Assembly: GCA_902768735.1 (NCBI GenBank)
Contig: CACXMK010000014.1
Coordinates: forward strand, 1-41,372
Length of the DNA stretch: 41,372 bases
Direction: 5' to 3'
Source of the DNA: an uncultured Lachnospiraceae bacterium
Lineage (GTDB): Bacteria; Bacillota; Clostridia; Lachnospirales; Lachnospiraceae
Part shown: one piece after another, positions 3,252-18,508 of the stretch
Numbering within the stretch: position 1 is the stretch's first letter
Layout of the letters: every line of letters starts with the position of its first letter
Notes under the pieces: model-generated
What the model was told of the DNA's origin: nothing
Databases searched by the model: none
The model's input: only the letters and a program-made list of their open reading frames with translations
Made by a program: the position numbers and the translations under genes

Positions 3252-4070
3252 CTATCCTATCTTCTTCACGAACCCTTCGATCAGATGATTCACGAGCTCC
3301 GGCTCATCCGTATTGGAATTGTGCCCTGCCCCCTTGATCCAAGTGATCGGGATCCCTGACTTTTTGTGCCATGCCTTATTGTAGCGGATGCACGACCCGG
3401 CGTGATCCTGGTCTCCGCAGATCAGCAGCGCAGGACATTTGATGTCATAGGGAAGCTCCGCCTCCACCGCATCCGCGAGGATCCTATAGCCGTGGCCGGC
3501 GAGCTTCGCGTACCGCTCCTGATCGCCGTCATAGACCATCATCATGTCATGCATGAGCTTTCTCCCCTGCTCAGAAGAAGCCACGCCGTTTGTTCCCTGC
3601 TTTACAAGCGTCTTCCAGGGATAATGGCGGTAGACCGGCTCCATTCTCTTGAGAAGCCAGATCTCAACTGCCGTCGTATATTCCCGCTTAAGCGGCGCGG
3701 AATCGATTGAGATAAATCCCCTGAGCTTTTTCGGAAACTGCTGCGCGTATGCCTGGCCGACATAACCTCCCATGGATTGGCCAATAATGACCGGTTCATC
3801 AAAGCCCTCAAGCTGCAGGATCTCGTCCACCCACTTCGCTTTATCCATGAGGGAAAATGTCATCTCAAACGGATACGAAGCCGTGTGTCCGGGCGCGTCC
3901 CACACGAACAACGGATACCTGCCTTCGAAGTATTCGATCTGTTTCCCAAACAGGCGGTGGTCCGCCGTCAGGCCCGGCAGAAACACCAGCTGCGGCGCTG
4001 CCGCTGCCGCTTCTTTACTTACCCAGTAATGGATCACCCCACAGGATGTCTCGTAGGTTTTTTCTATCAT
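3252..4070 (-). CDS. Alpha/beta-fold hydrolase
   Basis: The 272-residue protein has the alpha/beta hydrolase layout. The nucleophile elbow is GQSMGG with Ser at residue 99, the oxyanion-loop region is VFLPGLTADHRLF, the acid is probably in LLICGDQDHAG and the catalytic His in KGAGHNSNTDEP near the C-terminus. Such enzymes cleave esters, lactones or similar bonds; the substrate is not evident. Its start lies 24 bases after the aldolase stop, with a G-rich AGGGGGG ribosome site, so it is the second gene of an aldolase-hydrolase operon under the operator pair at 4804-4925. No signal peptide or membrane segment is seen. That it belongs to the sugar pathway is inferred only from this operon. Confidence 0.88.
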   Translation of the reverse strand: MIEKTYETSCGVIHYWVSKEAAAAAPQLVFLPGLTADHRLFGKQIEYFEGRYPLFVWDAPGHTASYPFEMTFSLMDKAKWVDEILQLEGFDEPVIIGQSMGGYVGQAYAQQFPKKLRGFISIDSAPLKREYTTAVEIWLLKRMEPVYRHYPWKTLVKQGTNGVASSEQGRKLMHDMMMVYDGDQERYAKLAGHGYRILADAVEAELPYDIKCPALLICGDQDHAGSCIRYNKAWHKKSGIPITWIKGAGHNSNTDEPELVNHLIEGFVKKIG

Positions 4071-4094
4071 GATCTTACCCCCCTGTCAGCAAAA

Positions 4095-4769
4095 TCACAG
4101 TTCCGCCATTGTACTCTTTCCGGTAAGCGTCTCAAAATCCTTTATGAACGCATCCACCGCAGCATAGATCGCCGGATTCGCCACGAAGCTCTCGATCACA
4201 TCCGGAGAAACGGTCGCGCAGCCAATGCCGTACTCCGCAAGCTCCAGCACCTGCTGGGAATTCTTAAAGCTGGCAGCCAGCATCTGCGTCTCCATTCCGT
4301 TGTTGTCAAAGATGTCCTGGATCTCTTTGCAGACCGCGACGCCGTCGTATCCCATGTTGTCGATCCTGTTGATGTACGGCGCGGTGAACGACGCGCCCGC
4401 CTTGCCCGCCAGATACGCCTGCATCGGCGTGTAGATCGCTGTTCCGGTCGTTCGGATTCCTTTCTGCGACAGTGCCTTCATGGCCTTGAACCCTTCCGGG
4501 ATGCAGGGGATCTTCACGATCGTGTCCTCTCCGAGCTCCTTCACGATGCGCTCCGCGTCTTTTAGCATACCTGCGGCATCCGTCGCCAGCACCTGCACAT
4601 GGAGGTCCGCATCCTTTCCGATGAAATCGCGGATCTCCTTTAACACATCAAACGGCTGCTTTCCGGTCTTTGCCAAAATACTGGGATTTGTAGTGACACC
4701 GTCGATCGGATAGAGATCGTAGATCCGGCGGATTGCTGCTATATTTGCATCATCGATCAAAAGCTTCAT
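4095..4769 (-). CDS. Fructose-6-phosphate aldolase / transaldolase-like protein (FSA/TalC type)
   Basis: The 224-residue product belongs to the short transaldolase family. The Schiff-base Lys is in TIVKIP at residue 86, GVTTNPSILA lies near residue 24, and APYINRID places a Tyr at 132, where true transaldolases carry Phe and E. coli FsaA has Tyr131. A Gln at residue 59 (HVQVLA) and a Thr near 110 match other FSA active-site residues. I therefore favour aldolase over transaldolase activity: reversible cleavage of fructose-6-phosphate, or a 1-deoxy analogue, to glyceraldehyde-3-phosphate and a three-carbon ketone. A longer frame exists upstream, but AGGAGG eight bases before the ATG at 4769 fixes the start. 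The promoter at 4837-4864 is near consensus and an operator covers its start site. It leads an operon with the downstream hydrolase. Confidence 0.92.
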   Translation of the reverse strand: MKLLIDDANIAAIRRIYDLYPIDGVTTNPSILAKTGKQPFDVLKEIRDFIGKDADLHVQVLATDAAGMLKDAERIVKELGEDTIVKIPCIPEGFKAMKALSQKGIRTTGTAIYTPMQAYLAGKAGASFTAPYINRIDNMGYDGVAVCKEIQDIFDNNGMETQMLAASFKNSQQVLELAEYGIGCATVSPDVIESFVANPAIYAAVDAFIKDFETLTGKSTMAEL

Positions 4770-4803
4770 TGTTTTCCTCCTTGCCGCCTTTGCGAAAAAT
4801 TCT

Positions 4804-4832
4804 ATTCGTAATATGTGATTGCTTCTTACGAA
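4804..4832. promoter_or_regulatory. Operator O1 at the aldolase promoter
   Basis: TTCGTAA at 4805-4811 and TTACGAA at 4826-4832 form a perfect 7-base inverted repeat separated by 14 bases. It lies immediately downstream of the aldolase -10 element, over the expected transcription start, so binding should block transcription. The same arrangement with the same spacing recurs at 4898-4925. I infer that the DeoR protein at 10068-10814 binds it. Confidence 0.75.
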
Positions 4833-4836
4833 ATTT

Positions 4837-4864
4837 ATTATACGCATATGAGGAGTATTGTCAA
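4837..4864 (-). promoter_or_regulatory. Consensus promoter for the aldolase-hydrolase operon
   Basis: On the minus strand TTGACA (4864-4859) and TATAAT (4842-4837) are separated by 16 bases, a fully consensus sigma-A pair. A promoter this strong, flanked by two operators, is what a repressed inducible operon would have. Confidence 0.85.
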
Positions 4865-4897
4865 TGATTTTTGCATACATAATAAAAATTAATTTCA

Positions 4898-4925
4898 TTC
4901 GTAATTTCTATTGCTTGTTTACGAA
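4898..4925. promoter_or_regulatory. Operator O2 at the transporter/activase promoter
   Basis: TTCGTAA at 4898-4904 and TTACGAA at 4919-4925, again with a 14-base spacer, overlap the -35 element of the plus-strand promoter. The spacers of O1 and O2 also share ATTGCTT. The distance between O1 and O2 centres is about 93 bases. Confidence 0.75.
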
Positions 4926-4938
4926 TCCGTGCTATACT
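4911..4938 (+). promoter_or_regulatory. Promoter for the EamA transporter-activase operon
   Basis: TTGCTT (4911-4916) and TATACT (4933-4938) are spaced by 16 bases on the plus strand. The -35 lies within operator O2. The leader to the transporter start is about 100 bases. Confidence 0.65.
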
Positions 4939-5040
4939 GTGTCTATGAGCAGCCGGGCCACTGCCATGGCCACGCAAAAAACGACACACTAATATAATAA
5001 TGGTAGCGTTGCAGAGAACGTGCCGTAATGGAGATTCATA

Positions 5041-5934
5041 ATGAAACCACCAATGCAAACAAACGCCAATTCTTCCACTGGGCTTTCCAATCGCACGAAG
5101 GGGATCCTGTTCATACTAATGGCAGGCTTTTTCTTTTCCCTGATGTCGGTCTTTGTGCGGCTTTCGGGCAATGTGCCGACCATGCAGAAAGCTTTTTTCA
5201 GAAATATCATTGCCACTGCCGTGGCAGCTGTCCTTCTTGTAAGGTCCGGACAGAGCGTTTTCATAGGCCGGCGAAATCTGCCCGCGCTTCTTATGCGCTG
5301 CATTTTTGGAACGGTCGGGATCGTAAGTAACTTTTGGGCAGTCGACCATATGCGAATTGCTGACGCGAATATGCTCAACAAGCTCTCTCCGTTTTTTGCC
5401 ATACTGATGTCGATCTTTATTCTTAAGGAATTGCCGAGTAAAGTAGAATGGATCTGCGTCATTGTTGCATTCATCGGGGCGGCGTTTGTTGCAAAGCCGA
5501 GTGCAGGCATGGTCTCATTTCCCGCCCTCGTCGGGCTGCTGGGTGGATTCACGGCGGGAACCGCGTACACATTTCTGCGCAAACTGGGGCTTAACGGCGT
5601 ACGCGGGCCGGTGATCGTGATGGCGTTCTCCGCTTTTTCGACAGTGGTCCTCTTACCGAACCTCATCCTGAATTATCATCCGATGACACTGCAGCAGTTC
5701 CTGTGCCTGATCATGGCAGGCTCCTGCGCAGCCGGCGGACAGCTGTCGATCACGGCGGCATATCAGCATGCGCCCGCGCGGGATATTTCCGTCTTCGATT
5801 ACTCGCAGGTCGTGTACGCAGCGATGTTCGGGTTTCTTCTCTTCGGAGAGCTTCCGGATATCTGGAGTTTTGTCGGGTATGTGATCATCATCGGAACAGC
5901 ATTTGTAAAGTGGTTCTTAAGACCGGCGGAATGA
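5041..5934 (+). CDS. EamA/DMT-family membrane transporter
   Basis: The 297-residue protein is a drug/metabolite transporter superfamily (EamA) protein with about ten hydrophobic helices arranged as two repeated halves. The first helix is around residues 20-38 (GILFILMAGFFFSLMSVFVR) and the last ends near 290 (GYVIIIGTAFVKWF). Members carry amino acids, nucleotides, sugars or efflux substrates. A GGAG lies eight bases before the ATG. It is the first gene of an operator-controlled unit that continues into the glycyl radical activase 74 bases later, so uptake of the pathway substrate or export of a small product is a reasonable guess. The substrate is not shown by the sequence. Confidence 0.88.
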   Translation: MKPPMQTNANSSTGLSNRTKGILFILMAGFFFSLMSVFVRLSGNVPTMQKAFFRNIIATAVAAVLLVRSGQSVFIGRRNLPALLMRCIFGTVGIVSNFWAVDHMRIADANMLNKLSPFFAILMSIFILKELPSKVEWICVIVAFIGAAFVAKPSAGMVSFPALVGLLGGFTAGTAYTFLRKLGLNGVRGPVIVMAFSAFSTVVLLPNLILNYHPMTLQQFLCLIMAGSCAAGGQLSITAAYQHAPARDISVFDYSQVVYAAMFGFLLFGELPDIWSFVGYVIIIGTAFVKWFLRPAE

Positions 5935-5941
5935 ACAATGT

Positions 5942-5990
5942 GAGTCAAAACAGTCAACTCCCCGACTCTTGGGGACAGAATGTCTGACTC
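5942..5990 (+). repeat. Intergenic stem-loop between transporter and activase
   Basis: GAGTCA (5942-5947) pairs with TGACTC (5985-5990), and an inner TCCCC (5959-5963) pairs with GGGGA (5971-5975). There is no T run, so it is not an ordinary terminator. It could lower read-through, protect mRNA ends, or be a small intergenic repeat. The activase ribosome site (AAGGAG) follows within ten bases. Confidence 0.55.
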
Positions 5991-6008
5991 AGTTTAAGGA
6001 GAACTCGA

Positions 6009-7046
6009 ATGAATGACATAAATACTGTTACTTCCGGATCTGCAGTAAGCGGCACCGTGTTCAACATCCAGAAATTCAGCCTGAACGACGGTCCGGGGAT
6101 CCGTACAGTCGTATTTCTGAAGGGCTGCCCCCTGCACTGTCTCTGGTGTTCCAATCCGGAGAGCCAGTCACCAAAGCCGCAGATCCTATGGGATGAAAAA
6201 AAGTGCCTGCATTGCGGGCACTGCGTGCTTACTTGTCCGGAAGGAGCTGTACATCGCATCGACCCGCACGGTGCCCTTGTGGGCGAAGCCGCGAAGCTTG
6301 CCGGTACTCTTGAAAGCGCCACTGCGCAGCAAACCGATGCCATGAAAGGCGCGAACGCTTCCGCTGAACAATTTCGCATCCATGTGGATCACCATCACTG
6401 CACAGGCTGCGGCCATTGCCTTAAGGAATGCCCCGGAAAAGCCCTGAAAACAGAGGGAGAGACCAAGACCGTAGCGGATGTCCTGCGCGTCGTTATGCAG
6501 GATCTAGCGTTCTACGAAGAGAGCGGCGGCGGGATCACTCTATCCGGCGGCGAACTCCTCATGCAACCGCGGTTTGCCTCCGCACTGCTGAAAGAAGCCA
6601 AAAAGAACGGCCTTGATACCGCTGTCGAAACCACAGGTTTCGCTGTCCCGGCTGTGTTTAATGAAGTGACGAAAGACGTGGATCATTTCATGATCGACCT
6701 CAAGCACTGGGATGAACGCGCTCATGTAAAGTGGACCGGTGTCTCGAACCGTTATCCTCTTCAGAATATGAAACACGCGACAGAAACCGGCAAAGACGTG
6801 CTTCCCCGAATTCCTGTCATACCCGGGGTCAACGATTCTCCGGAAGACGCCGCCGGCTTTGTGAAGCGACTCCAGGAGGCCGGCGCTTCAAAGGTACAGC
6901 TTCTCCCCTTCCATCAGTTCGGCGAGAATAAATATGCGCAGCTCGGAAAGGACTATGCTTTTACAGATGTGAAAGCCCTTAAGCAGGAAGACCTCGAGGA
7001 GTACCGCCAAATCTTCCTGAAGGCCGGGATCGACGCATTTTTCTAA
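6009..7046 (+). CDS. Glycyl radical enzyme activase (radical SAM, PflA/YbiY-like)
   Basis: The 345-residue protein generates the glycyl radical on its partner enzyme by reductive cleavage of S-adenosylmethionine. The radical-SAM CxxxCxxC motif is at Cys40, Cys44 and Cys47 (KGCPLHCLWC). Two further 4Fe-4S ferredoxin motifs follow at Cys66/69/72/76 and Cys131/134/137/141, as in activases of the non-PFL glycyl radical enzymes. GGGITLSGGE near residue 178 is the SAM-binding GGE region. A loop at about residues 87-124, between the two clusters, is longer than I expect and Ala-rich. The start has AAGGAG eight bases upstream. It converges on the glycyl radical enzyme, its probable partner, and is presumably co-transcribed with the transporter under operator O2. 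Confidence 0.94.
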   Translation: MNDINTVTSGSAVSGTVFNIQKFSLNDGPGIRTVVFLKGCPLHCLWCSNPESQSPKPQILWDEKKCLHCGHCVLTCPEGAVHRIDPHGALVGEAAKLAGTLESATAQQTDAMKGANASAEQFRIHVDHHHCTGCGHCLKECPGKALKTEGETKTVADVLRVVMQDLAFYEESGGGITLSGGELLMQPRFASALLKEAKKNGLDTAVETTGFAVPAVFNEVTKDVDHFMIDLKHWDERAHVKWTGVSNRYPLQNMKHATETGKDVLPRIPVIPGVNDSPEDAAGFVKRLQEAGASKVQLLPFHQFGENKYAQLGKDYAFTDVKALKQEDLEEYRQIFLKAGIDAFF

Positions 7047-7047
7047 T

Positions 7048-7082
7048 AAAAAGGGCTGTCGCACGAAATGCGGCAGCCTTTG
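7048..7082. terminator. Bidirectional terminator between activase and lyase
   Basis: AAGGGCTGTCGCA / TGCGGCAGCCTT is a strong stem with a short loop, with A's on one side and T's on the other. It directly follows the activase stop and lies downstream of the minus-strand lyase and kinase remnant, so it can serve both directions. Confidence 0.85.
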
Positions 7083-7123
7083 TCTCGTCTTTTTGCTAAT
7101 TTTGAACCTGTGAATTTCGAGTT

Positions 7124-7158
7124 GGGTACAGACGATGATTTCAGAAAACATTCTTCAG
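7124..7158 (+). repeat. Possible degenerate seventh copy of the ~35-bp repeat
   Basis: GGGTACAG at 7124-7131 followed by an A/T-rich middle and AACATTC resembles the forward units at 1375-1522, but the CCCC end is lost. It lies exactly where the ROK-kinase similarity ends. The likeness may be chance. Confidence 0.35.
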
Positions 7159-7377
7159 CGATCAAATCACCGGAAGAAACATCCTTAAAGAACCTGATCC
7201 CATCCACCTGCGACTCGGGGATCTTTTTCCGATCCGCATATTTCCTGCACAAAGCAGGTACACTGCAGCGGTTTCCCCAAATAACATCTCTGTCTGGATA
7301 TCCGCTTCCCTCGGTAATGATATAGCTCACCTCACCCGCCGCGAAATTCTTTCCGCGGTACAAAGTGTGGTTCCGGA
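7130..7377 (-). pseudogene. Remnant of a ROK-family sugar kinase/regulator
   Basis: Read on the minus strand from just after the lyase stop codon, about 75 residues resemble an internal part of ROK proteins: LYRGKNFAAGEVSYI corresponds to the GxxxAGExGHI region, then an IWG....SVPALCRKYA helix and a stretch ending GDLIAEEC. Both the N-terminal ATP-binding DxGxT region and the C-terminal half are missing. A TTG at 7361-7363 opens the frame, but there is no ribosome site and the lyase stop abuts it. I read it as the decayed 3' neighbour of the lyase gene. The identification rests on motif memory, not a search. If right, the locus once carried a kinase, or ROK regulator, that is now lost. Confidence 0.5.
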
Positions 7378-9792
7378 TTACAGCGTCTGCTCCGTCCTCG
7401 CAATGATGTCATCCTGTGTCGCCCTGGACAGAACGTTAAAGAACGCACTGTATCCTGCAACGCGGACGATCAGGTCTTTATGCCGCTCCGGATGCGCCTG
7501 TGCATCCAGCAGCGTCGCGCGGTCCACGATGTTGTACTGCACATGGTATCCGTGCAGGCGGTGGAAGAAGGTGGCGATCAGCATCTCGAGTTTTTTCTTA
7601 TTCTCCTCTGTGGAGAGCATCTGCGGAGTCATCTTCTGGTTCAGCAGAACGCCGCCGGTGATCTTCTCCGTGCGGAGCTTGGAAACTGTCTTAAAGACTG
7701 CTGTAGGGCCATTCTTGTCACAGTTATGCGCTGGGCTGCAGCCTTCTGCCAGCGGTTCGCGCGCCTTTCTGCCATCCGGCGTCGCCATGGTTCCCATGCC
7801 CTGCCCGACGTTCGCGCTGATCGAGGAGGTCCCGCCATAGCGGATCCCGCCGATCGGTCCGCGCATGTTCCTGGTATTCGGGTAATGTGTGATCTCGTCG
7901 AGATAGGAATCGTAGGCATCCACCACCAACTGGTCGACGTAATCGTCGTCGTTTCCGTATTTTGGCGCCTCATCCTCCAGCATCTGGCGGATCTTCCGGT
8001 TCTCGGGAGAAGTATAATTGTCCAGGATCGCGTCCCAAAGCTGGGCAGGTGTGATCCTCTTTTCCTCGTACACGAGCTTCTTGATCGCAGCCAGCGAATC
8101 TGCCATATTGGCGATCCCGACCTGAAGGGCCGAGATGTAGTCGTAGACCGCGCCGCCCTCCTTGATCGTCTTGCCCCTGCCGATGCAGTCGTCTGTCAGC
8201 GCGGAGCAGAGGATATCGGGCACGTCGCGCTCGGAAGCAAGGTCGACCGCGTTCTCGATGATCACGCTGTACTTCGTCATCTCGCGGATCGTGCGGTCCC
8301 ATGCGTCGAAGAGCTGGTCATAGGACGTCCAGTCCTTGAAATACCCGTATCCCTTGGTAAAGCGCTTCCCGCTGGTCAGATCGACGCCGTCGTTCATGGC
8401 GCAGAGCAGAATGCGGGGGAAGTTGATGTAGCTCATTCCCGTGCAGCGATAGCCCCACTTGCCGGGTACAGCCGTCTCGACGCAGCCGATCGCGCTATAG
8501 TCATACGCGTCATCCTCCGCAACGCCCCAGCTGATGAACGAGGGGATAATGATCTCGTCATTGTTGAACGCGGGCATGCCAAATCCCAGCTTCATGACTT
8601 CGATGCACTCGTCGTAAAACTTCTTGTCGATGCCGTGGTGCCAGCGCACGGTAAGGTTGGGCTGCGTTAGGCGCGTCTGCGCCACCGACTGCAGCACGAG
8701 CCAGGAGAGGCTGTTCACCGCGTCCTTCTTGTCCCTGGTCTGTCCGCCGATGGTCACGTTCTGGTACATCGGGCTTCCCGCGCTCGAGAAGGTGTGCGCC
8801 TGCGAACGGATCTTGTTGATGGTAAGGCTCTTGATCCAGAGGCAGGTCAGCAATTCCATCGCCTCTTCCTTCGTGATCCGGCCCTCCGCCATATCTTTGT
8901 CAAAATACGGATACATATACTGATCGAACCTACCGTAAGAGAGCGAATGCCCGTTGGATTCGATCTGCAGGATCAGCTGGATGAACCATACCGCCTGTAC
9001 GGCTTCACGGAAAGTCTCAGCAGGCTCATAGGGAACTTTCTCGCAGATGCGGGCCATCTCTTCGAGCTCTGCTTTGCGTGCGGGATCCGCTGTCTTTTCT
9101 GCCATCTCCGCAGCCAGTGCGCTGTAGCGCGCAGCAAACCTGCGCACGGCGCCAATCACCGTCAGGACCGCTTTATAGAATACGTTCTTGTCGAGTGCTT
9201 TCGGCACTGTCAGATCCAGGCCTGCCTTCAGCTCAAGGACTCTCTTCTCATATCCTTTCAGGCCTTCTTTGAGCATTCTTCCGTAATTCACCGCGATGTG
9301 GGCATCACCGGCGTTCAGCTTCCCTTCCATTCCGAAGACACCTGTCTCCATAAAGACACTGACTTCTTCGGGAATCAGTGCATCACCGCGCGCGCGGAGG
9401 TTGTTGTTCTCCCAAAACGGCGCGATCTCACGCAGCTGCTCTTTCGTTTCTTCTGTGATATAAAAGACGTCTCCGTCTCTCTTCTCAAACAGATCCAGCT
9501 CGTCGATCACAAACTTCATCGTGTATTCCGGGAAGATCGGGGCGTTCTTGTTCTTCTGCGCCTGGTTTCCGGCGAGAAGTGTCCTGTCCTCGATATAGAT
9601 CGACATGTTGTCCAGGATGTGCTCCAGCATGAGTGCACGCATCATCACTCTGGGCTGGTGTCTGTTAGCCTTATACACTTCCGTCGCAAGCACGGCGCGC
9701 TCTGCGTCAATATAAGGCTTCTCGTCCAGGACTTCCTCCCGGAACGCCTGCATCCTCTGTGTGAGTGCCCCGAAGTGCTCTTTGTTTTCCAT
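7378..9792 (-). CDS. Glycyl radical enzyme, YbiW-like (candidate 1,5-anhydroglucitol-6-phosphate lyase)
   Basis: This 804-residue protein is a glycyl radical enzyme. The radical Gly is in VRVAGYSAFF at residue 780, 25 from the C-terminus, and the active-site thiyl Cys437 with Glu439 is in AIGCVETAVPGKWGYRC. It is not pyruvate formate-lyase, which has adjacent Cys-Cys. Many stretches match E. coli YbiW as I recall it: IQLILQIESNGHS, AGSPMYQNVTIGGQ, FGMPAFNNDEI, GKWGYRCTGMSYINF, APKYGNDDD and TSSISANV. YbiW has been reported to open 1,5-anhydroglucitol-6-phosphate to 1-deoxyfructose-6-phosphate, which an FSA aldolase then splits. A glycerol- or propanediol-dehydratase-like role is the alternative. 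AAAGGAG precedes the ATG. The gene diverges from deoR; the activase converges on it. It needs anaerobic conditions. Confidence 0.93.
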   Translation of the reverse strand: MENKEHFGALTQRMQAFREEVLDEKPYIDAERAVLATEVYKANRHQPRVMMRALMLEHILDNMSIYIEDRTLLAGNQAQKNKNAPIFPEYTMKFVIDELDLFEKRDGDVFYITEETKEQLREIAPFWENNNLRARGDALIPEEVSVFMETGVFGMEGKLNAGDAHIAVNYGRMLKEGLKGYEKRVLELKAGLDLTVPKALDKNVFYKAVLTVIGAVRRFAARYSALAAEMAEKTADPARKAELEEMARICEKVPYEPAETFREAVQAVWFIQLILQIESNGHSLSYGRFDQYMYPYFDKDMAEGRITKEEAMELLTCLWIKSLTINKIRSQAHTFSSAGSPMYQNVTIGGQTRDKKDAVNSLSWLVLQSVAQTRLTQPNLTVRWHHGIDKKFYDECIEVMKLGFGMPAFNNDEIIIPSFISWGVAEDDAYDYSAIGCVETAVPGKWGYRCTGMSYINFPRILLCAMNDGVDLTSGKRFTKGYGYFKDWTSYDQLFDAWDRTIREMTKYSVIIENAVDLASERDVPDILCSALTDDCIGRGKTIKEGGAVYDYISALQVGIANMADSLAAIKKLVYEEKRITPAQLWDAILDNYTSPENRKIRQMLEDEAPKYGNDDDYVDQLVVDAYDSYLDEITHYPNTRNMRGPIGGIRYGGTSSISANVGQGMGTMATPDGRKAREPLAEGCSPAHNCDKNGPTAVFKTVSKLRTEKITGGVLLNQKMTPQMLSTEENKKKLEMLIATFFHRLHGYHVQYNIVDRATLLDAQAHPERHKDLIVRVAGYSAFFNVLSRATQDDIIARTEQTL

Positions 9793-9897
9793 AGTGTCTC
9801 CTTTCGGTTTTCAGAAGCCGTATGCTCCTTGCTCTATTTTGACCTAATCCATTTTTGTTGGTTTCATACATAATTATTAAATGTTTCATTCGAATAA

Positions 9898-9926
9898 ATC
9901 CTAGCATCTTCTTCCCGCGATGTCAA
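9898..9926 (-). promoter_or_regulatory. Candidate promoter of the glycyl radical enzyme gene
   Basis: On the minus strand TTGACA (9926-9921) and TAGGAT (9903-9898) are spaced by 17 bases. Just downstream lies TTTCATTCGAATAA (about 9884-9897), whose TTTCATTCG start equals that of operator O2, so a variant half-site may sit over the start of transcription. Confidence 0.5.
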
Positions 9927-9983
9927 GCAAAAATGCACTAAGATAAGTGTAAAACATTTATTATCAAACAAATATTAGTTACG

Positions 9984-10005
9984 TTCGTAATCCAATATTG
10001 ACGAA
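9984..10005. promoter_or_regulatory. Candidate operator O3 upstream of deoR
   Basis: TTCGTAA (9984-9990) and TGACGAA (9999-10005) repeat the half-sites of O1 and O2 with one mismatch, but with an 8-base spacer instead of 14. The left half also forms a small palindrome, TTACG-TT-CGTAA. The site overlaps the -35 element of the deoR promoter, which fits autoregulation. Confidence 0.55.
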
Positions 10006-10026
10006 ATCGCTTTTTTTCTCTAGAAT
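9998..10026 (+). promoter_or_regulatory. Promoter of the deoR gene
   Basis: TTGACG (9998-10003) and TAGAAT (10021-10026) are separated by 17 bases, about 40 bases upstream of the ATG. Confidence 0.65.
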
Positions 10027-10067
10027 GAAACCGTAGTGAGTGACATCGAAAGGGGTTACAGAAAGCC

Positions 10068-10814
10068 ATGAAAGACCGCTCAAACGCGATATTAGCACTG
10101 CTTACAAAGCACGAAAAAATAGAAGTCGCCAAGCTCTCGGAAGAACTCGGCGTATCACAGGTCACGATCCGCAAGGATCTGGACAAGCTCATGTCCATGA
10201 ATCTGGTCATCCGGGAACATGGCTATGCCATGCTCAACAGCCCGGATGATGTAGCAGGACGTCTCGCATTCCATTATGAGGAGAAAAAGAAGATCGCCGA
10301 ACGGGCCGCTGAGCTTGTCGGAGACGGCGATACTATTATGATCGAAAGCGGGAGCTGCTGCGCTCTTCTTGCCCTCGCGCTCACGGAAACGAAGAAGAAT
10401 GTGACGATCATCACAAACAGCGCTTTCATTGCCGATTACATTCGTAAGAAAACAGATTTCCAGATCATTCTCCTCGGCGGGATCTATCAGCACGACTCCC
10501 AGTGCATGGTCGGCCCCATGGTCCGGGATGGCGCGGCGAACTTCAATGTGAAATATTTCTTCGTGGGGGCAGATGGCTTCACCGCGAGAGCAGGATTCAC
10601 CAACAAAGACCAGATGCGTGCACAGGCTGTGCGGGACATGGCGGAATCCGCGGAAACGGTCGTCGTGCTGACAGAGAGCTCCAAGCTGGGCGCGCACGGA
10701 ACGGTCTCCATGAACCTTCGCGGAAAGAAGCTCACACTCATCACGGATCAGCAGGCTTCGCAGGAGTATCTCGAGATCCTGAAAGAGAAAGGGATTGACG
10801 TCGTGCTGGCATGA
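10068..10814 (+). CDS. DeoR-family sugar-phosphate-responsive transcriptional regulator
   Basis: The 248-residue protein has an N-terminal winged helix-turn-helix of DeoR type (residues 1-57, with KLSEELGVSQVTIRKDL as the recognition region) and a C-terminal DeoRC sensor domain. Sensor signatures are GDTIMIESGS near 85, ITNSAFIADY near 119, LGGIYQ and FFVGADGFTARAGFTNKD near 165-180. The family usually represses sugar catabolic genes until a phosphorylated sugar binds. It diverges from the glycyl radical enzyme, and TTCGTAA half-sites lie in front of both itself and the aldolase/transporter promoters, so it is the probable local repressor. AAAGGGG lies somewhat far upstream of the ATG. A strong terminator follows. 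Confidence 0.93.
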   Translation: MKDRSNAILALLTKHEKIEVAKLSEELGVSQVTIRKDLDKLMSMNLVIREHGYAMLNSPDDVAGRLAFHYEEKKKIAERAAELVGDGDTIMIESGSCCALLALALTETKKNVTIITNSAFIADYIRKKTDFQIILLGGIYQHDSQCMVGPMVRDGAANFNVKYFFVGADGFTARAGFTNKDQMRAQAVRDMAESAETVVVLTESSKLGAHGTVSMNLRGKKLTLITDQQASQEYLEILKEKGIDVVLA

Positions 10815-10952
10815 GGCAGTGTTGTGGCCTGCCGTCTCTGGTTGGCGGGCGGATCCAACTTGCTTTATATCATTTTGGAGCTGTAGCCTCTGGGTAATTC
10901 TAGGGCAGATTCTATTATGATTTCTGAGATGGGATCTGCCTGCTATTTGGAG

Positions 10953-11002
10953 GTGCATCAACTTTTAGGGAAAACCTGATTTGTTGATGCACTCTTTTTT
11001 TT
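10953..11002 (+). terminator. Rho-independent terminator of deoR
   Basis: GTGCATCAAC and GTTGATGCAC form a perfect 10-base stem around a 20-base loop, followed by TCTTTTTTTT. It lies about 140 bases after the deoR stop. Confidence 0.88.
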
Positions 11003-11170
11003 AATCCTTACGGCCCCATCTCCCCATAATTGAGTTTGGAGCTGCCCGCAGCTCCAGCTACCCTCCGCCCCATCTGCCCGCAGCTCCATCGGCCCATCAA
11101 ACCGTAGCCCCACCTTCCAACCATGCCTACAATGCCAACACCCCCACCACCCTTCCCAATAAAACAATAA

Positions 11171-11210
11171 CTGCCGCACCAAGAAAATATCCCTGGTGCG
11201 GCAGTTTATT
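11171..11210. terminator. Terminator downstream of guaA
   Basis: CTGCCGCACC (11171-11180) and GGTGCGGCAG (11195-11204) form a perfect 10-base stem. On the minus strand it is followed by TTATTGTTTTATT, placing it as the end of the guaA transcript; T's on the other side make it potentially bidirectional. Confidence 0.85.
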
Positions 11211-11230
11211 GCGTTAATTGAATTCATTCG

Positions 11231-12796
11231 TCATTCCAGCTCGATCGTCCCCGGCGGCTTGCTCGTCAGGTCATACAGTACGCGGTTGACGCCCTTCACC
11301 TCGCCAATGATGCGGTTCATGCAGGTCTGCAGCACGCTCCACGGGATCTCCGCCGCTTCCGCAGTCATGAAGTCGTCGGTGATCACGCCCCTGAGCGCCA
11401 CTGCATAGTCATAGGTCCTTCCGTCGCCCATGACGCCAACAGATCGCATGTTGGTCAATGCGGCAAAAAACTGCCCTTTCCCGGTATCGATGCCGCCCTT
11501 CTCCAGTTCCTCCCTGAAGATCGCATCCGACTCCTGCACGATCCTGACCTTCTCAGCAGTGACGTCGCCCACGATCCGTACGCCCAGTCCCGGGCCCGGG
11601 AACGGCTGCCGGAAGACCAGATGGCGGGGCAGGCCGAGCTCCAGCCCTGTCTGCCTCACTTCATCCTTAAAGAGCAATCTGAGAGGCTCCACGATCTCTT
11701 TGAAATCCACATGCTCCGGAAGGCCGCCGACATTGTGATGCGACTTGATCACGGCGCCGCCGCTTCCTGTACCGCTCTCCACCACATCGGGATAGATCGT
11801 TCCCTGCGCCAGGAAATCGACCTCTCCGATCTTCTTCGCCTCTTCCTCAAAGACGCTGATGAATTCGGCGCCGATGATCTTTCTCTTCATCTCCGGATCC
11901 GTGATGCCCGCCAGCTTAATATAGAATCTCTCCTGCGCGTTCACACGGACAAAATTCAGCTCGAACGGACCTTCCGCTCCAAAGACCGCCTCGACCTCAT
12001 CCCCCTCGTTCTTACGAAGAAGACCGTGATCGACAAAGACGCACGTCAGCTGCTTTCCAACTGCGCGCGACAGGAGCGCCGCCGCGACAGAGGAATCCAC
12101 GCCGCCCGACAGTCCCAGAAGGACTTTGCCGTCTCCAATGCGCTCCCGGAGCTCGCTCACCGTCGTCTCGACAAACGAAGACATCTTCCAGCTTCCGCTG
12201 CAGCCGCAGACATCCATGACGAAATTGCGCAGGAGCTGCTTTCCAAACGGCGTGTGCACAACTTCCGGATGGAACTGCACCGCGTAGAGCCTGCTGCCCG
12301 ACAGTTCCATTGCCGCCACGGGACAGTGATCTGTATGTGCGGTGACCTTAAACCCCCTCGGAGGCACCGCAATGTAATCCGTGTGGCTCATCCAGCAGGA
12401 GGATTCCCGCGCAGCGTCCACCGCGATCCCCTCAAAGAGCCTGGATCCCGTTCCTGCCCCATCCAGCACGATCTCTGTGTGGCCGTACTCGCTCACAGGT
12501 GCCGTCGCCACTTTTCCGCCAAGTTTATAGGCCATGAGCTGCGAGCCGTAGCAGATCCCGAGCACCGGAATGCCCAGGCCGAACAAAGCGGGATCGCAGG
12601 TCGGCGAATCCGCCGCGTAGACACTGTTCGGACCACCCGTGAGGATAATGCCCCTGGGCCTCATCGCCAGGATCTCCGCCGGCGTCTTCGTATAGGGATG
12701 GATCTCGCAATACACGTTGCATTCCCTGACCCTTCTCGCGATCAGCTGCTTATACTGGCCGCCGAAGTCCAGGACGATGATGAGTTCTCTGTCCAT
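11231..12796 (-). CDS. guaA: GMP synthase (glutamine-hydrolysing)
   Basis: The 521-residue enzyme converts XMP to GMP with ATP and glutamine, the last step of guanine nucleotide synthesis. The N-terminal class I glutaminase has its Cys near residue 82 ([10 protein letters not shown]) and the His/Glu pair in QFHPEVVHT. The ATP-pyrophosphatase domain follows with its P-loop [16 protein letters not shown] near 225, and the GMP-synthase dimerisation domain ends [17 protein letters not shown]. An in-frame ATG eight codons upstream exists, but TGGAGG six bases before the ATG at 12796 supports the shorter start. It follows asnS on the same strand with a strong hairpin between, so it may have its own promoter. 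Length and motifs are normal. Confidence 0.97.
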
Positions 12797-14414: not shown

Positions 14415-15641
14415 TTACTGTGCGGCTTCCTCTGCAGTCGCGCTTTCGCTTGCATCTTCAGCTGCGGGAGCCACCACGTTGGCCTTACCCTTGAGGAACT
14501 CAAGGATCTTCTGTCTGTCGAGGACCTCTCTGTAAGCCTCTACGTCCTCTTTGGGAACGTCAGATACGGAGGTGTATCCGCTTGCGCTGTTCACGGCCGT
14601 CTCCAGTTCCGCCTGGAACTGATCGTCGGTCATGCTCAGGCCTTCCTTGTCGCCGATCGCCTTGAGGATGATGATCCTCTGGACACTCTCCTCCGCCATT
14701 GCACGGATATCATCCAGATAGGTCTCCTCTGTGGAACCGTAAGCGAGCTGCATCAGCGTCTTGAGGTCAATGCCGTACTGCATGCCATAGCTCGTCAGTT
14801 CCTGCGTCATCGTCTCGCTGACCCTTTGAACCATGGCCTCCGGAATCTCCTTCTTGAAGGAGGACTTCTCCATCAGCGTGCTCTTGATCGCTTCCTCGAG
14901 CCTCTGTGTATACTGGCTCTCGTTGTTCTCGATCAGGTAATTTCTCACATAGGCGCGGAAATCAGAGACCGTGGAAACAAGGTTTCCGAAATCATCTGTG
15001 ATACCCAGTGATACCACAAAATCATCCGTCAGGTCCGGAACGACATACTCCTTGATCGCATTGATCGTGACGTCAAATTCCGCGGCGACGCCCGCTTTCG
15101 TTGTGTCGCTGTAGTCTTCCGGGAAAGTAAGTGACAGCGTCACAGTCTCGCCGACTTCGTGGCCGATCAGTCCGTCTTCAAAACCGGCGATAAAGCTTCC
15201 GGAACCGATCGTCAGATCGTAATCCGAGTCGGTGCCGCCGTCAAACTCTACGCCGTCGATCTTCCCGACATAATCGATATTGGCAGTATCCCCTTCCTGT
15301 ACTACGGATCTGCCTTTGATCTCCTGGAGTTCTTTCTTTGCTTCCCTCTGTCTGTCGATCAGGCTCTCTACTTCCTCGTCCGTCACTTCCGCGGCGGGCT
15401 CCACCTCTACGGTAAGGGATGCATAATCTGCCGGAAGCTCCACGAAATCGGCCGCAGTGATCCCTGTGAGATACGCTGTGGGATCCGTCTGCCACTCATA
15501 TTCCGCTGCGACCTCTGCCTCCTGCGTTGTCGCCACAGCAGCTGCCTCTTCCGTAGTGGTACTTGTGGTTGTGCCGCCGCATCCTGCCAGTACCAAGACC
15601 GCCGCCGCAGTCATCATTGCCGCAAAGATTCTCTTGTTCAT
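14415..15641 (-). CDS. Exported trigger-factor-like peptidyl-prolyl isomerase lipoprotein
   Basis: The 408-residue protein begins with a lipoprotein signal peptide: positive MNKR, a hydrophobic stretch and the lipobox LAGC with Cys21. A Thr/Ala/Glu-rich linker follows to about residue 50. Residues 80-200 resemble the middle of trigger factor: a helical VTDEEVESLIDRQR segment, then an FKBP-type isomerase domain (EGDTANIDYVGKIDG, GSGSFIAGFEDGLIGH, FPEDY). Residues 205-390 resemble the trigger factor C-terminal chaperone arm. The ribosome-binding N-terminal domain is replaced by the lipoprotein leader. It probably works outside the membrane as a folding helper, analogous in place to PrsA. The Ala/Glu-rich tail is low-complexity. 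Its ribosome site is weak (AAAGGC). Confidence 0.87.
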   Translation of the reverse strand: MNKRIFAAMMTAAAVLVLAGCGGTTTSTTTEEAAAVATTQEAEVAAEYEWQTDPTAYLTGITAADFVELPADYASLTVEVEPAAEVTDEEVESLIDRQREAKKELQEIKGRSVVQEGDTANIDYVGKIDGVEFDGGTDSDYDLTIGSGSFIAGFEDGLIGHEVGETVTLSLTFPEDYSDTTKAGVAAEFDVTINAIKEYVVPDLTDDFVVSLGITDDFGNLVSTVSDFRAYVRNYLIENNESQYTQRLEEAIKSTLMEKSSFKKEIPEAMVQRVSETMTQELTSYGMQYGIDLKTLMQLAYGSTEETYLDDIRAMAEESVQRIIILKAIGDKEGLSMTDDQFQAELETAVNSASGYTSVSDVPKEDVEAYREVLDRQKILEFLKGKANVVAPAAEDASESATAEEAAQ

Positions 15642-15873
15642 AACTGTTTTGCCTTTCTGTTTATGCTATTTTTTAAAAAAACCTGAAAATAACTAATACA
15701 GTTTAGCACAACCTTAAGATTCTTAAAAGATATAGCCGCGTAAAAACATTAACTTTTCGGTAAATTATCTGTAAAAACCGCAGATTTTTGTTGTTCCTTC
15801 TTTCATTCGCTTGTTGCCATGCCCCTCATTCAATGATAAAATGCTTAGTAGCGTATTTGAGGAGGGTTCTGTT

Positions 15874-16350
15874 TTGAAAACAAGTACTATCGTTTTATTA
15901 GTGATCTTATTGATTCTGATCGGTGTTCTGGTCGCTCTTTACTTTTTCGGAAAGCGCATGCAGAAGAAGCAGGAAGAGCAGAATGCACAGGTCCAGGCCA
16001 ACAAACAGCCGTATGTTATCATGGCCGTCGATAAGAAAAAACTTAAGCTCAAGGAATCCGGACTCCCTGCGGAAGTGATCGCGAACACCCCGTGGTATGC
16101 ACGCCGCGCGAAGGTCCCGGTCGTAAAAGCTAAGATCGGAAACAGGTTCATGAATCTGATCGCAGACGAGAACGTCTTTGACCTGATCCCGATCAACAAG
16201 CAGGTGAAAGCCATGATCAGCGGCATCTACATCGTGGAAGTCAAGGGAATGCGCGGCCAGAGGCTCGTCTCCGACAACCCGGTCAAGAAGAACTGGTTCC
16301 GCAGACAGATGGACAAGATCAAGGAAAAGGCAGGCGCCAAGCCCGTTTAA
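15874..16350 (+). CDS. Small membrane-anchored protein of unknown function
   Basis: I place the start at the TTG at 15874, seven bases after GAGGAGGG; the frame stays open upstream to an ATG at 15811, but that has no ribosome site. The 158-residue product has one N-terminal membrane helix (about residues 4-24, IVLLVILLILIGVLVALYFF), a basic/Gln-rich linker and a soluble domain of about 100 residues. That domain holds ESGLPAEVIANTPWYARRAK, a KAKIGNRFMNLIADE core and a basic tail. The N-terminus is probably outside and the domain cytoplasmic. I do not recognise a named family. It diverges from the trigger-factor-like gene and ends in its own terminator. Confidence 0.8.
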   Translation: MKTSTIVLLVILLILIGVLVALYFFGKRMQKKQEEQNAQVQANKQPYVIMAVDKKKLKLKESGLPAEVIANTPWYARRAKVPVVKAKIGNRFMNLIADENVFDLIPINKQVKAMISGIYIVEVKGMRGQRLVSDNPVKKNWFRRQMDKIKEKAGAKPV

Positions 16351-16429
16351 CAGCTAAGCTCAACTTGAGCCAAAAGGACAGCGGCATATCACAGACCCTT
16401 TGGTCCACTTTAAAAATTGCATAGTTTAA

Positions 16430-16455
16430 GGCCGGCTGTACAGCCGGCCTTTTTT
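16430..16455 (+). terminator. Rho-independent terminator after the small membrane protein
   Basis: GGCCGGCTGTACAGCCGGCC is a perfect hairpin followed by TTTTTT on the plus strand. Confidence 0.93.
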
Positions 16456-16465
16456 CATGTCTGGA

Positions 16466-16912
16466 TTACTCCACGGGCTCCGCCTTCACCGTCACCGCGC
16501 ACTCCATGGGATCCCCTCCCTCCGGGACCAGCCTGTAGCGGATCCGCGCATGGAAGTTACCTCCGATCTCCTTCACCGCGAAATGCCTTGTGAGGACCGC
16601 CATCGGGATCGCCCCGAACGGGGTTCCGTACATACAGTTCTGTTCCTGTCCCGGCGCAAACTTCATGACCACATTGATCCCGCCGCTTCTTGTAATGCTG
16701 CAGATTCCTTCCGAAAACTCCATTACGGACTCTGTGACAGCGCCGCTCTGCGAATCCTCCTCGCGGAAGCGGAATACACGGACGCCGTCCCTGTTCTCAT
16801 AAAGAGCCCGGACGCTCGTCCTGCTGCTGTCCTTACTCCCCTCCGCAAGCGTCTGTTCCCCGGTCACGGTCAGCCACACTTCTGTCTTTGCATAGTCCTG
16901 CGCAGCCGTCAT
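16466..16912 (-). CDS. DUF1934 / YwiB-like beta-barrel protein
   Basis: The 148-residue protein resembles the DUF1934 (B. subtilis YwiB) family, small calycin-like beta-barrels of unknown role. Characteristic features are VWLTVTGEQ at the start, a middle MEFSEGICSITRSGG strand pair, and MYGTPFGAIPMAVLTRH followed by alternating strands to the end (IRYRLVPEGG). The longer open frame begins at 16954, but the ATG at 16912 overlaps the TGA of the upstream GntR gene in an ATGA arrangement with GAGAGCGGG before it, so translational coupling is likely. No signal peptide is present. No pathway can be assigned. Confidence 0.78.
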   Translation of the reverse strand: MTAAQDYAKTEVWLTVTGEQTLAEGSKDSSRTSVRALYENRDGVRVFRFREEDSQSGAVTESVMEFSEGICSITRSGGINVVMKFAPGQEQNCMYGTPFGAIPMAVLTRHFAVKEIGGNFHARIRYRLVPEGGDPMECAVTVKAEPVE

Positions 16913-17610
16913 TTCCCGCTCTCCGAAAGAAGCCGGTTCCGGATCGACTCCCACTGGCGCACGATATGGATCCGCGCCGCCCTCTCTGCGGCTTCCCTGT
17001 CTCCGCTCTGGATCGCCCTGTACAATTCGCTGTGTTCAGCGATCAGGTGCTCGTAATGCTCGTCGTCCCTGATATACTCGTAGCGGTAGCGGTAAATGTT
17101 GTCGGCGAGTCCTTTCAGAATACTGCCGAGCTTCTCGTTCTTGGCCGCTTTGAGGATCATGTCGTGGAACTTAACGTCCGCTTCCGCGATCTCCAGGCTG
17201 TCTCCCGTATGCGTGCTCCTTATAAACGCGTTGCACGCCTCGCGAAGCTGCTCCGTCTCTTTTTCCGTGATCCGCACGCTCGCAAGGCCGGCGCTTAGCT
17301 GTTCCAGCGCACTCCGGATCTCCATCACTTCCTGCAGATTCTCAGGCGTCATACGTGATACCCTGGCGCCGCTCCCCGGAACGATCGTGACAAGCCCTTC
17401 CAGTTCCAGCATCCGGATCGCTTCCCTGATCGGCGTCCGGCTGGTCCCCAGGACCTTGCCGAGTTTCACTTCCGTTAGTCTCTCCCCGGGCTTGATCTTT
17501 CCGGTCAGGATCGCTTTTCGAAGCGATACAAAGACCGCGTCCCGAAGAGGCATGGACTGCTGCTCTTCCGTCATGGCCATCCCGGCAGTGAGAAAACTGT
17601 CCTGTCCCAT
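16909..17610 (-). CDS. GntR-family (FadR/FCD subfamily) transcriptional regulator
   Basis: The 233-residue protein has an N-terminal winged helix (about residues 20-85; LTEVKLGKVLGTSRTPIREA is the recognition region) and a C-terminal all-helical FCD ligand-binding domain. There, MEIRSALEQLSAGLA, DVKFHDMILKAAKNEKL and EHSELYRAIQSGDREAAERA carry the Asp/His metal-type ligand positions. Such regulators sense organic acids or amino acids. The ATG at 17610 has AAGGGGG in front and is 10 bases after the ispE stop, so it is co-transcribed with pyrKD-ispE; an upstream open extension reads through ispE in another frame and is discarded. The target genes are not evident. Confidence 0.9.
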   Translation of the reverse strand: MGQDSFLTAGMAMTEEQQSMPLRDAVFVSLRKAILTGKIKPGERLTEVKLGKVLGTSRTPIREAIRMLELEGLVTIVPGSGARVSRMTPENLQEVMEIRSALEQLSAGLASVRITEKETEQLREACNAFIRSTHTGDSLEIAEADVKFHDMILKAAKNEKLGSILKGLADNIYRYRYEYIRDDEHYEHLIAEHSELYRAIQSGDREAAERAARIHIVRQWESIRNRLLSESGK

Positions 17611-17620
17611 GTGTACCCCC

Positions 17621-18508
17621 TTAAATCCGGTAAACAAACCTGGTGGCGAGCACCCGGCAGTCTCTTGCGCTGTCCGTGGCAGCAAACGCTTTCGCTGCGT
17701 CTTCCGCCTCTTCTTCCGTTGTAAAAACAGCAAATACAGTAGGTCCGCTCCCTGACATTTTCGAGACCAGCGCCCCTTCACTCTCAAAGAACTTCTCGAT
17801 CTCCCCGATCTGCGGGTACATGGCGCCTGTCACTTCTTCAAGCACGTTGACGCACTGGGCGGCCATCCCGCGCAGGTCTCCGCGCCTGATCGCGTCCAGC
17901 TGCGCGTCGATGTCGGGATGCCTGACTGCTACAAGGCTGTCATAGCGCTTGTACACTTCCCCTGTCGAGACTCCTGCGGAAGGCTTACAGATCACAAGTC
18001 CGCAGGCCGGTGCGTCCGGAAGCACGGTCAGGATCTCGCCGATCCCCTCCGACAACTGCGTCCCGCCTGTAATACAGTAGGGAATGTCAGCGCCCAGTGT
18101 CGCGCCGATCCTCTGCAGCTGCCCGTCGCTCACTTCCGGTACAAAGAGGTCTCTCACAGCGCGCAGCGCGGCAGCGGCGTCGGTACTTCCTCCCGCCAAA
18201 CCGGCGGCGACCGGGATCCTCTTTGTCAGGGTGATCTTCAGATCCCCGCGGAGGCCGAATTCCTTCTCCATGCTCCGCACCGCCCTGACGATCAGGTTGT
18301 CCTCGCCACAGGGGATTTCCCCGCTGTCCGTCGCGAGCGCGATCTCCATCGGCGAGCAATCCTTGTCCTGAGTCTCAAAAATAAGATCGTCGCTGATGCC
18401 GATCGTCTGCATGATCATCCTGACGATGTGATATCCGTCTTCCCGTCTCCCAAGAACATCCAGACTGAGATTGATCTTGGCATACGCTGTCTGCTCAATT
18501 CTTCTCAT
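17621..18508 (-). CDS. ispE: 4-diphosphocytidyl-2-C-methyl-D-erythritol kinase
   Basis: The 295-residue GHMP kinase phosphorylates CDP-methylerythritol in the MEP isoprenoid pathway. Visible signatures are AYAKINLSLDVLGRREDGYH at the N-terminus (catalytic Lys), the ATP-binding glycine loop PVAAGLAGGSTDAAAALRA near residues 96-114 and GADIPYCITGG. The C-terminal KMSGSGPTVFAVF is the third GHMP motif. The start ATG overlaps the pyrD stop (ATGA), with GGGAG seven bases upstream, so translation is coupled to pyrD. A much longer upstream frame runs through pyrD and is not coding. Length is normal. Confidence 0.95.
   Translation of the reverse strand: MRRIEQTAYAKINLSLDVLGRREDGYHIVRMIMQTIGISDDLIFETQDKDCSPMEIALATDSGEIPCGEDNLIVRAVRSMEKEFGLRGDLKITLTKRIPVAAGLAGGSTDAAAALRAVRDLFVPEVSDGQLQRIGATLGADIPYCITGGTQLSEGIGEILTVLPDAPACGLVICKPSAGVSTGEVYKRYDSLVAVRHPDIDAQLDAIRRGDLRGMAAQCVNVLEEVTGAMYPQIGEIEKFFESEGALVSKMSGSGPTVFAVFTTEEEAEDAAKAFAATDSARDCRVLATRFVYRI

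Follow-up and report, generated by a model that had tools for sequence, protein, structure and literature searches.

A YbiW-type glycyl radical enzyme locus with a predicted DeoR operator and a kinase relic at the guaA site of a Lachnospiraceae bacterium

We analyzed a 41,372-nucleotide stretch of contig CACXMK010000014.1 (GenBank assembly GCA_902768735.1, an uncultured Lachnospiraceae bacterium), referred to as the window, in which six genes encode an alpha/beta hydrolase, an FSA-type aldolase, an EamA transporter, a radical-SAM activase, a glycyl radical enzyme (GRE) and a DeoR-family repressor (Table 1). Our favored interpretation, to which we assign a probability of roughly 0.7, is that the locus is a horizontally acquired anhydroglycolysis regulon of the YbiW type that was originally fed by a kinase and not by a phosphotransferase system (PTS), was broken up at guaA, is controlled by the DeoR protein, and has seen its own kinase decay. 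A preliminary description of this DNA had proposed an anhydrosugar regulon split over four transcripts, with the hydrolase and EamA as possible new parts. The coordinates and families that it gave for the six genes were all confirmed and its two divergent gene pairs are real, while its overall interpretation was supported in part: the YbiW clade, the aldolase active site and a common operator stood, and the role given to the hydrolase and EamA and the contrast based on missing PTS and GldA genes did not.

The glycyl radical enzyme, aldolase and activase

The GRE has both domains expected of its class (PF02901, 697.9 bits; PF01228, 111.3 bits; Pfam), is a member of the PFL2/glycerol dehydratase subfamily (TIGR01774, 905.5 bits versus a cut-off of 678.2), and in alignments keeps the active cysteine and the RVAGY radical motif, with Cys437, Glu439, and Gly780 in place. 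It failed the cut-off of every equivalog listed for the named GRE relatives, among them the NCBIfam models for HypD (582 of 1100 bits), CutC (537 of 1050), PflD (551 of 1109), and sulfopropanediol dehydratase (548 and 541 of 1000). In phmmer comparisons with solved structures, 6xs4 ranked top (850 bits), the YbiW chains 8id7 and 8yjn scored 843 bits, and glycerol dehydratase (611), PflD (446), and HypD (438) were lower. Identity to E. coli YbiW was 50.3% over 803 columns, and to PflD 35.6%. For comparative purposes we used the 80 top-ranking GRE loci out of 590 confirmed relatives (these and the other stretches compared are numbered with the prefix L); 6 kb were available on both sides of the GRE in just 43 of these 80, some loci being cut by contig ends. 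A 93-row tree joined the window GRE, YbiW and these relatives with a branch support of 98 and left PflD and the HypD-type rows outside. The window GRE retains all 164 columns that do not vary among the 84 other rows of the clade, and 30 of these columns differ in both PflD and the HypD-type row L097. The stretch GKWGYRCTGMS is common to the window GRE and YbiW and is replaced in PflD and the HypD-type rows.

The enzyme had been called YbiW-like, with the suggestion that it be placed against YbiW, PflD, CutC, glycerol dehydratase, and HypD; scores, tree (98%), and alignment bear this out and place it in the YbiW clade rather than with the others, glycerol dehydratase and CutC being excluded by scores only since they were not among the tree rows. 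Judged by these comparisons, the window GRE is most likely a 1,5-anhydroglucitol-6-phosphate enzyme of the YbiW type, an oxygen-sensitive radical enzyme with which the bacterium would degrade 1,5-anhydroglucitol, an analogue of glucose. It has no signs of decay: there are no stops, and the ratio of nonsynonymous to synonymous substitution rates (dN/dS) is ~0.09 versus its counterpart in locus L002 (Oscillospiraceae metagenome-assembled genome RGIG3788), with dS near saturation.

The aldolase is identical to FsaA at 12 of 13 checked positions, the exception being Leu107, which is a threonine in the window. Lys85, Tyr131, Arg134, and Ser166 of FsaA are kept, and Lys85, Arg134, and Ser166 are also identical in FsaB; in FsaA numbering, we take Lys85 to be the Schiff-base lysine and Arg134 and Ser166 to be the phosphate site. 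Alignment to these two proteins thus upholds the assignment as an FSA-type aldolase with an intact active site, although it falls short of the equivalog cut-offs of NCBIfam (212.4 of 245.95, 207.1 of 214, and 204.3 of 306 bits). It is 67% identical to the aldolase of L002 and 71% to that of L005, with a dN/dS of ~0.13 for the latter pair (dS near saturation). The activase has an intact radical-SAM CX3CX2C motif and both CX2CX2CX3C motifs of the extra 4Fe-4S clusters; its dS was not computable. At 345 residues it is longer than the median of its cluster (298), and the linker between the two ferredoxin-like motifs is longer.

The predicted DeoR operator

The best NCBIfam model for the DeoR protein was YciT, at 205 bits under a cut-off of 450. 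In the 31 GRE promoters of relatives that were examined, a repeated TTACGAATGAAA-like box lies near the promoter, with at least one copy of at most one mismatch in 27 promoters and two or more copies in 12, and the operator learned from these relatives is TTACGAAYGAAA. We built an operator matrix from 36 different sites of relatives, excluding the window (L072 and L128 are the same contig). When the 41-kb window was scanned with this matrix there were five matches scoring at least 6, all of which are inside the divergent regions 4770–5040 and 9793–10067. In a control of 30 block shuffles there were 0 to 2 matches each, and the best (14.7) was below the top two of the window (24.9 and 17.2). 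An exact copy of the operator pattern is present only once in the 2.7 Mb of the genome, namely at the FSA promoter. Among held-out GRE promoters (3 of the 80 loci were dropped because their upstream sequence was too short), 33 of 55 had a site scoring at least 11 within 400 bp, compared with 3 of 344 background stretches. Of six streptococcal loci, three have similar boxes upstream of the PTS EIIA gene, and in a fourth such a box lies at the annotated start of this gene.

The occurrence of a common operator in both divergent regions makes a regulon over four transcripts, as had been proposed, a fair reading, and supports the prediction that the window holds a DeoR-controlled regulon with a shared operator at its promoters. 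EamA and the hydrolase may have been drawn into this regulon by position.

Looser searches were less specific. When up to two mismatches were allowed, the simple pattern was found at 15 places in the window (4.95 expected), 10 of them outside the two divergent regions, and with up to one mismatch there were 24 sites in the genome versus 12 for the reversed pattern. Genome-wide sites were considered as a lead to a transporter or kinase, and no pathway gene was found at the seven loci that were read for genes. The best of these sites, scoring 15.4 and near chance level, precedes a gene that we labeled as a PRD-type PTS regulator-like gene (L242; contig C69:2123-2134 of genome G000).

The kinase relic and the guaA site

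Directly after the GRE stop codon lies a feature absent from the preliminary description, a relic of a ROK-family sugar kinase, which is 57.5% identical over 80 amino acids to residues 134–213 of the L002 ROK protein (E = 4e-26). In L002 the gene order is GRE-FSA-ROK-GldA, and the GRE is 83% identical to that of the window. Of the 80 loci, 17 have an intact ROK kinase gene no more than 6 kb from the GRE and 7 have PTS EIIA/EIIB genes, with no locus having both; 56 loci, some of them cut by contig ends, have neither ROK nor the searched PTS type in this range. Within the genus of the window, L131 has an intact ROK gene after FSA, whereas behind the GRE-FSA genes of L126 only ROK residues 1–38 are left (5965-6078), and L026, put in the genus by its tree position, has a ROK gene with an internal deletion in the same place (3593-4102). 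Since both of these loci also hold a partly deleted ROK gene, kinase loss happened more than once. Weak matches to ROK queries in L013, L014, L127, and L129 were taken as chance or as other ROK-like proteins. In the literature searched, which took in Ma et al. 2024 only through citing work, we found no paper on the ROK-fed form.

Five ROK-bearing GRE loci (L045, L047, L055, L073, and L016) have, by our labels, genes of a ribose-type sugar ATP-binding cassette (ABC) transporter within ~7 kb, and it is possible that such transporters are the uptake route replacing the PTS. In L059 (14084-16044), the GRE-FSA-ROK genes are followed by a calcineurin-like phosphoesterase and an aldo/keto reductase, the latter of which could stand in for GldA.

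The source assembly as a whole (2.7 Mb, 85.5% complete) has one PFL-like GRE. The genome has three full-length ROK proteins, of which that on contig C52 is 38% identical to the L002 ROK protein; PTS EIIC genes, one of whose products is 37% identical to E. coli FrwC; and four matches to iron-type dehydrogenases, the best on the three contigs compared with L002 GldA being 21% identical over 198 residues. None of the ROK, PTS EIIC, or iron-type dehydrogenase genes of the genome could be tied to the regulon or the operator, and absences in this genome prove little because of its incompleteness. Contig C153, with a ROK piece and an iron-type dehydrogenase gene beside PTS genes, was rejected as the missing kinase-dehydrogenase pair on finding no match to the L002 ROK and GldA proteins; it has just a 98-residue match, at 34%, to another ROK protein.

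With respect to origin, the tree puts the window GRE into a clade of 25 rows (100%) whose members include Erysipelotrichaceae, Selenomonadaceae, and Coriobacteriia; the 12 rows labeled as its own genus lie outside this clade. The window GRE is 83% identical to the copies from other families in this clade versus 74–76% to the full-length genus copies. YbiW-type GREs of at least 71% identity were found in 11 of 48 same-genus genomes, one copy being truncated at the end of its contig and another split in two. The lower identity of the genus copies, along with their separation in the tree, suggests that the window GRE was acquired horizontally.

The transporter and the hydrolase have a different distribution. 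Within 6 kb of the GRE (80 loci, E ≤ 1e-10) the activase gene was found in 65 loci, DeoR in 55, FSA in 46, EamA in 1 (50% identical and 5.6 kb away), and the hydrolase in none, and neither of the last two was found in the 11 genus stretches around a GRE. EamA has matches in 25 of 50 other same-genus genomes (E ≤ 1e-40) and the hydrolase in 15 of 50 (E ≤ 1e-20; two are 53-residue fragments). Eight genus genomes have a GuaA at least 90% identical, and the guaA surroundings fetched from them, some of which end at contig ends, contained no match to GRE, FSA, activase, or DeoR. EamA lies within 4.3 kb of guaA in four of the eight, at a distance of less than 30 bp in G022 and split in two in G003; one of the eight, G007, has the hydrolase ~1.1 kb from guaA. 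Nucleotide homology to the genus covers EamA (5087–5924), the hydrolase (3263–4070), and guaA (from 11229), with the pieces between not covered; because it stops at 5087, the EamA promoter in the window differs from that of genus relatives. We believe that the GRE genes were inserted among resident genes of the guaA site, probably in more than one step. The hydrolase is probably a resident gene of this site and not a pathway enzyme, and EamA is probably a resident gene as well, possibly put under the operator. The proposal that the two are new pathway parts is not supported: both occur near guaA in relatives lacking GRE genes there and do not go with the GRE elsewhere, and given this residence and their rarity near GREs (1/80 and 0/80) we rejected them as conserved parts of the pathway. 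No Rfam match at gathering scores and no tRNA was found in the window.

Table 1. Features of the locus, with positions in the window
Feature	Position	Strand	Basis or remark
Alpha/beta hydrolase, 272 aa	3252..4070	-	Pfam Abhydrolase_1; behind FSA
FSA-type aldolase, 224 aa from ATG at 4769	4095..4769	-	TAL_FSA
Weak operator-like site downstream of FSA -10	4800..4811	-	Matrix score 7.0
Weak operator-like site at FSA promoter	4822..4833	-	Matrix score 6.5
FSA promoter TTGACA-16-TATAAT, 12/12	4837..4864	-	Promoter scan
Predicted DeoR operator TTACGAATGAAA, between FSA and EamA promoters	4893..4904	-	Score 24.9, best of the window
Possible EamA promoter TTGCTT-16-TATACT, spacer holds TTACGAAT	4911..4938	+	By eye; absent from promoter-scan list
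EamA (DMT family) transporter, 297 aa	5041..5934	+	Pfam EamA
Radical-SAM activase, 345 aa	6009..7046	+	TIGR02494, 340.9 bits, cut-off 174.35; cluster motifs
Hairpin, likely terminator, between convergent activase and GRE	7053..7078	.	Fold of 99-nt segment, -20.7 kcal/mol; absent from terminator-scan list
ROK-family sugar kinase relic, 80 residues (~134-213 of 295)	7145..7384	-	Begins at GRE stop codon
YbiW-type GRE, 804 aa; Cys437, Glu439, Gly780	7378..9792	-	Domains, scores, tree, alignment
Operator-like site between GRE -10 and start	9862..9873	-	Score 8.4
GRE promoter TTGACA-17-TAGGAT, TG before -10	9898..9926	-	Promoter scan
Predicted DeoR operator TTACGAACGTAA, between GRE and DeoR promoters	9979..9990	-	Score 17.2
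DeoR promoter TTGACG-17-TAGAAT	9998..10026	+	Promoter scan
DeoR-family repressor, 248 aa	10068..10814	+	HTH_DeoR, DeoRC

Proposed mechanism, alternatives and known systems

Under our favored interpretation, DeoR would bind TTACGAAYGAAA sites at both pairs of divergent promoters, FSA/EamA and GRE/DeoR, and keep the four transcripts repressed until it is released by the anhydrosugar phosphate or one of its products. The activase would place the radical on Gly780 of the GRE. As expected from the YbiW family, Cys437 would then take the C2 hydrogen of 1,5-anhydroglucitol-6-phosphate and Glu439 would aid C1-O5 ring opening to 1-deoxyfructose-6-phosphate. The aldolase, with its active site kept, would split this product into glyceraldehyde-3-phosphate and hydroxyacetone. 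In the donor cluster a dedicated ROK kinase beside the GRE, not a PTS, would have fed the pathway; since this kinase is an 80-residue relic in the lineage of the window, another enzyme of the cell would have to supply the phosphorylation, perhaps a PTS or the ROK kinase of contig C52. EamA and the hydrolase would be residents caught between the pieces.

A number of observations count against this interpretation. The window stems from a draft metagenome bin, the tree, made by a quick method, contains long branches as well as joins that the program flagged, and 4 of the 12 genus rows (L026, L028, L032, and L072) were so labeled by us. The inserted genes have a host-like GC content, and a recent import is therefore not supported. 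A PF00480 search of the genome does not report the ROK relic, and most ROK-free loci have no relic, so that loss of the kinase can be stated for this lineage but not as a general rule. In the held-out loci the operator was not associated with the presence of any DeoR gene nearby (p = 0.53); the association needs a DeoR at least 44% identical (26/35 versus 7/20, p = 0.009). Lastly, EamA adjoins an operator in the window and, among the 48 same-genus genomes, is somewhat more common with a GRE (9/11) than without (16/37; Fisher p = 0.039, ignoring kinship).

These last points bear on the idea, which we consider quite unlikely, that EamA and the hydrolase do take part in the pathway: the hydrolase would free the anhydrosugar from an ester or conjugate, EamA would import the sugar or export a product, and all would be co-induced. 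Consistent with it are the tight spacing of FSA-hydrolase and EamA-activase as same-strand pairs, the position of the best operator between the FSA and EamA promoters, the mild co-occurrence of EamA and GRE in the genus, and an EamA promoter unlike that of genus relatives. Against this idea speak the near absence of both genes from GRE loci, including the 11 genus stretches, their presence near guaA where GRE genes are missing, and the lack of a hydrolase-GRE association in the same genomes (4/11 versus 7/37, p = 0.25). Highly doubtful, too, is a broader proposal of kinase-less, dispersed anhydroglycolysis, in which EamA and the hydrolase were captured under the DeoR operator for anhydrosugar uptake and release and a general PTS or the C52 ROK kinase does the phosphorylating; more widely, the YbiW pathway would have two feeding forms, one by PTS and one by ROK (several of these loci lying beside sugar ABC transporters), with one conserved DeoR operator.

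It is also unlikely that the GRE acts on another anhydrosugar phosphate or a related polyol phosphate, after a change of substrate in its clade relative to E. coli YbiW; an identity of just ~50% to the characterized enzyme would permit this, whereas the retention of all invariant clade columns, including the GKWGYRCTGMS stretch common with YbiW, and an FSA partner the same as that of YbiW speak against it. Finally, the ROK relic, the partly deleted kinases of L026 and L126, and the dispersed genes could be those of a dying remnant whose pathway was dead after kinase loss. We give this little credence because the GRE, activase, FSA, and DeoR genes are open with their catalytic motifs kept, dN/dS is low for the GRE and FSA, and both the promoter of FSA and the operator there come close to consensus. 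Further, the 56 of 80 relatives without ROK or the searched PTS type nearby (again, some cut by contig ends) indicate that the set can persist without an adjoining kinase.

Anhydroglycolysis through E. coli YbiW (ybiW-ybiY-fsaA) is reportedly the subject of Ma et al. 2024 (J Am Chem Soc 146:26187). The passages of PMC12441222 that bear on this topic describe that pathway, and they present 1,5-anhydroglucitol as a sugar analogue that comes from the diet; in two human neutropenias its 6-phosphate builds up in neutrophils and harms them. The pathway itself is already published; the window departs from it in that the genes are dispersed, that there is a DeoR operator, and that a trace remains of a form fed by a kinase and not by a PTS. 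Knowing which gut bacteria degrade 1,5-anhydroglucitol, along with their switch and phosphorylation route, would make the pathway findable by its operator and testable, and the operator and the ROK-kinase form offer direct predictions for many Bacillota. The relic also carries a warning that neighbors such as EamA and the hydrolase can resemble pathway parts by an accident of insertion.

Like the window, E. coli ybiW has a YbiW-clade GRE, an activase, and an FSA aldolase, and its GRE has no adjoining PTS or GldA gene. The absence of these genes had been offered as a distinguishing feature of the window, yet the 15-kb surroundings of ybiW also lack both, and gldA, fsaB, and the Frw PTS of E. 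coli are located at pflD. The window differs from E. coli in its dedicated DeoR with a conserved operator, its separate transcripts with residents between them, its ROK relic, and the lack of an FSA-GldA pair. The closest full pathway is that of L002 (GRE 83%, FSA 67%, and DeoR 57% identical, and the middle part of ROK matching the relic), which is compact, with DeoR and the activase divergent from GRE-FSA-ROK-GldA and all genes intact. Streptococcus-type loci (L041, L042, L044, L065, and L077) have the same operator and a DeoR, GRE, and FSA that are ~50%, ~71%, and ~39% identical, respectively, but their cluster includes PTS EIIA/B/C and GldA. The PflD pathway (pflD-pflC-fsaB-gldA-frw) performs, according to the relevant passages of PMC12441222, an analogous reaction on the manno epimer; PflD belongs to another GRE branch and is 36% identical.

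Some loci have two GREs. In Lactobacillus selangorensis (L052) the YbiW-type GRE (10001-12400) is followed 3 kb on by a second GRE (15384-17672) that passes the PflD equivalog cut-off (1182 versus 1109 bits), so that both anhydrosugar branches adjoin. In L063 and L081, a YbiW-type GRE, FSA, activase, and then a second, different GRE at ~14028 occur in a row.

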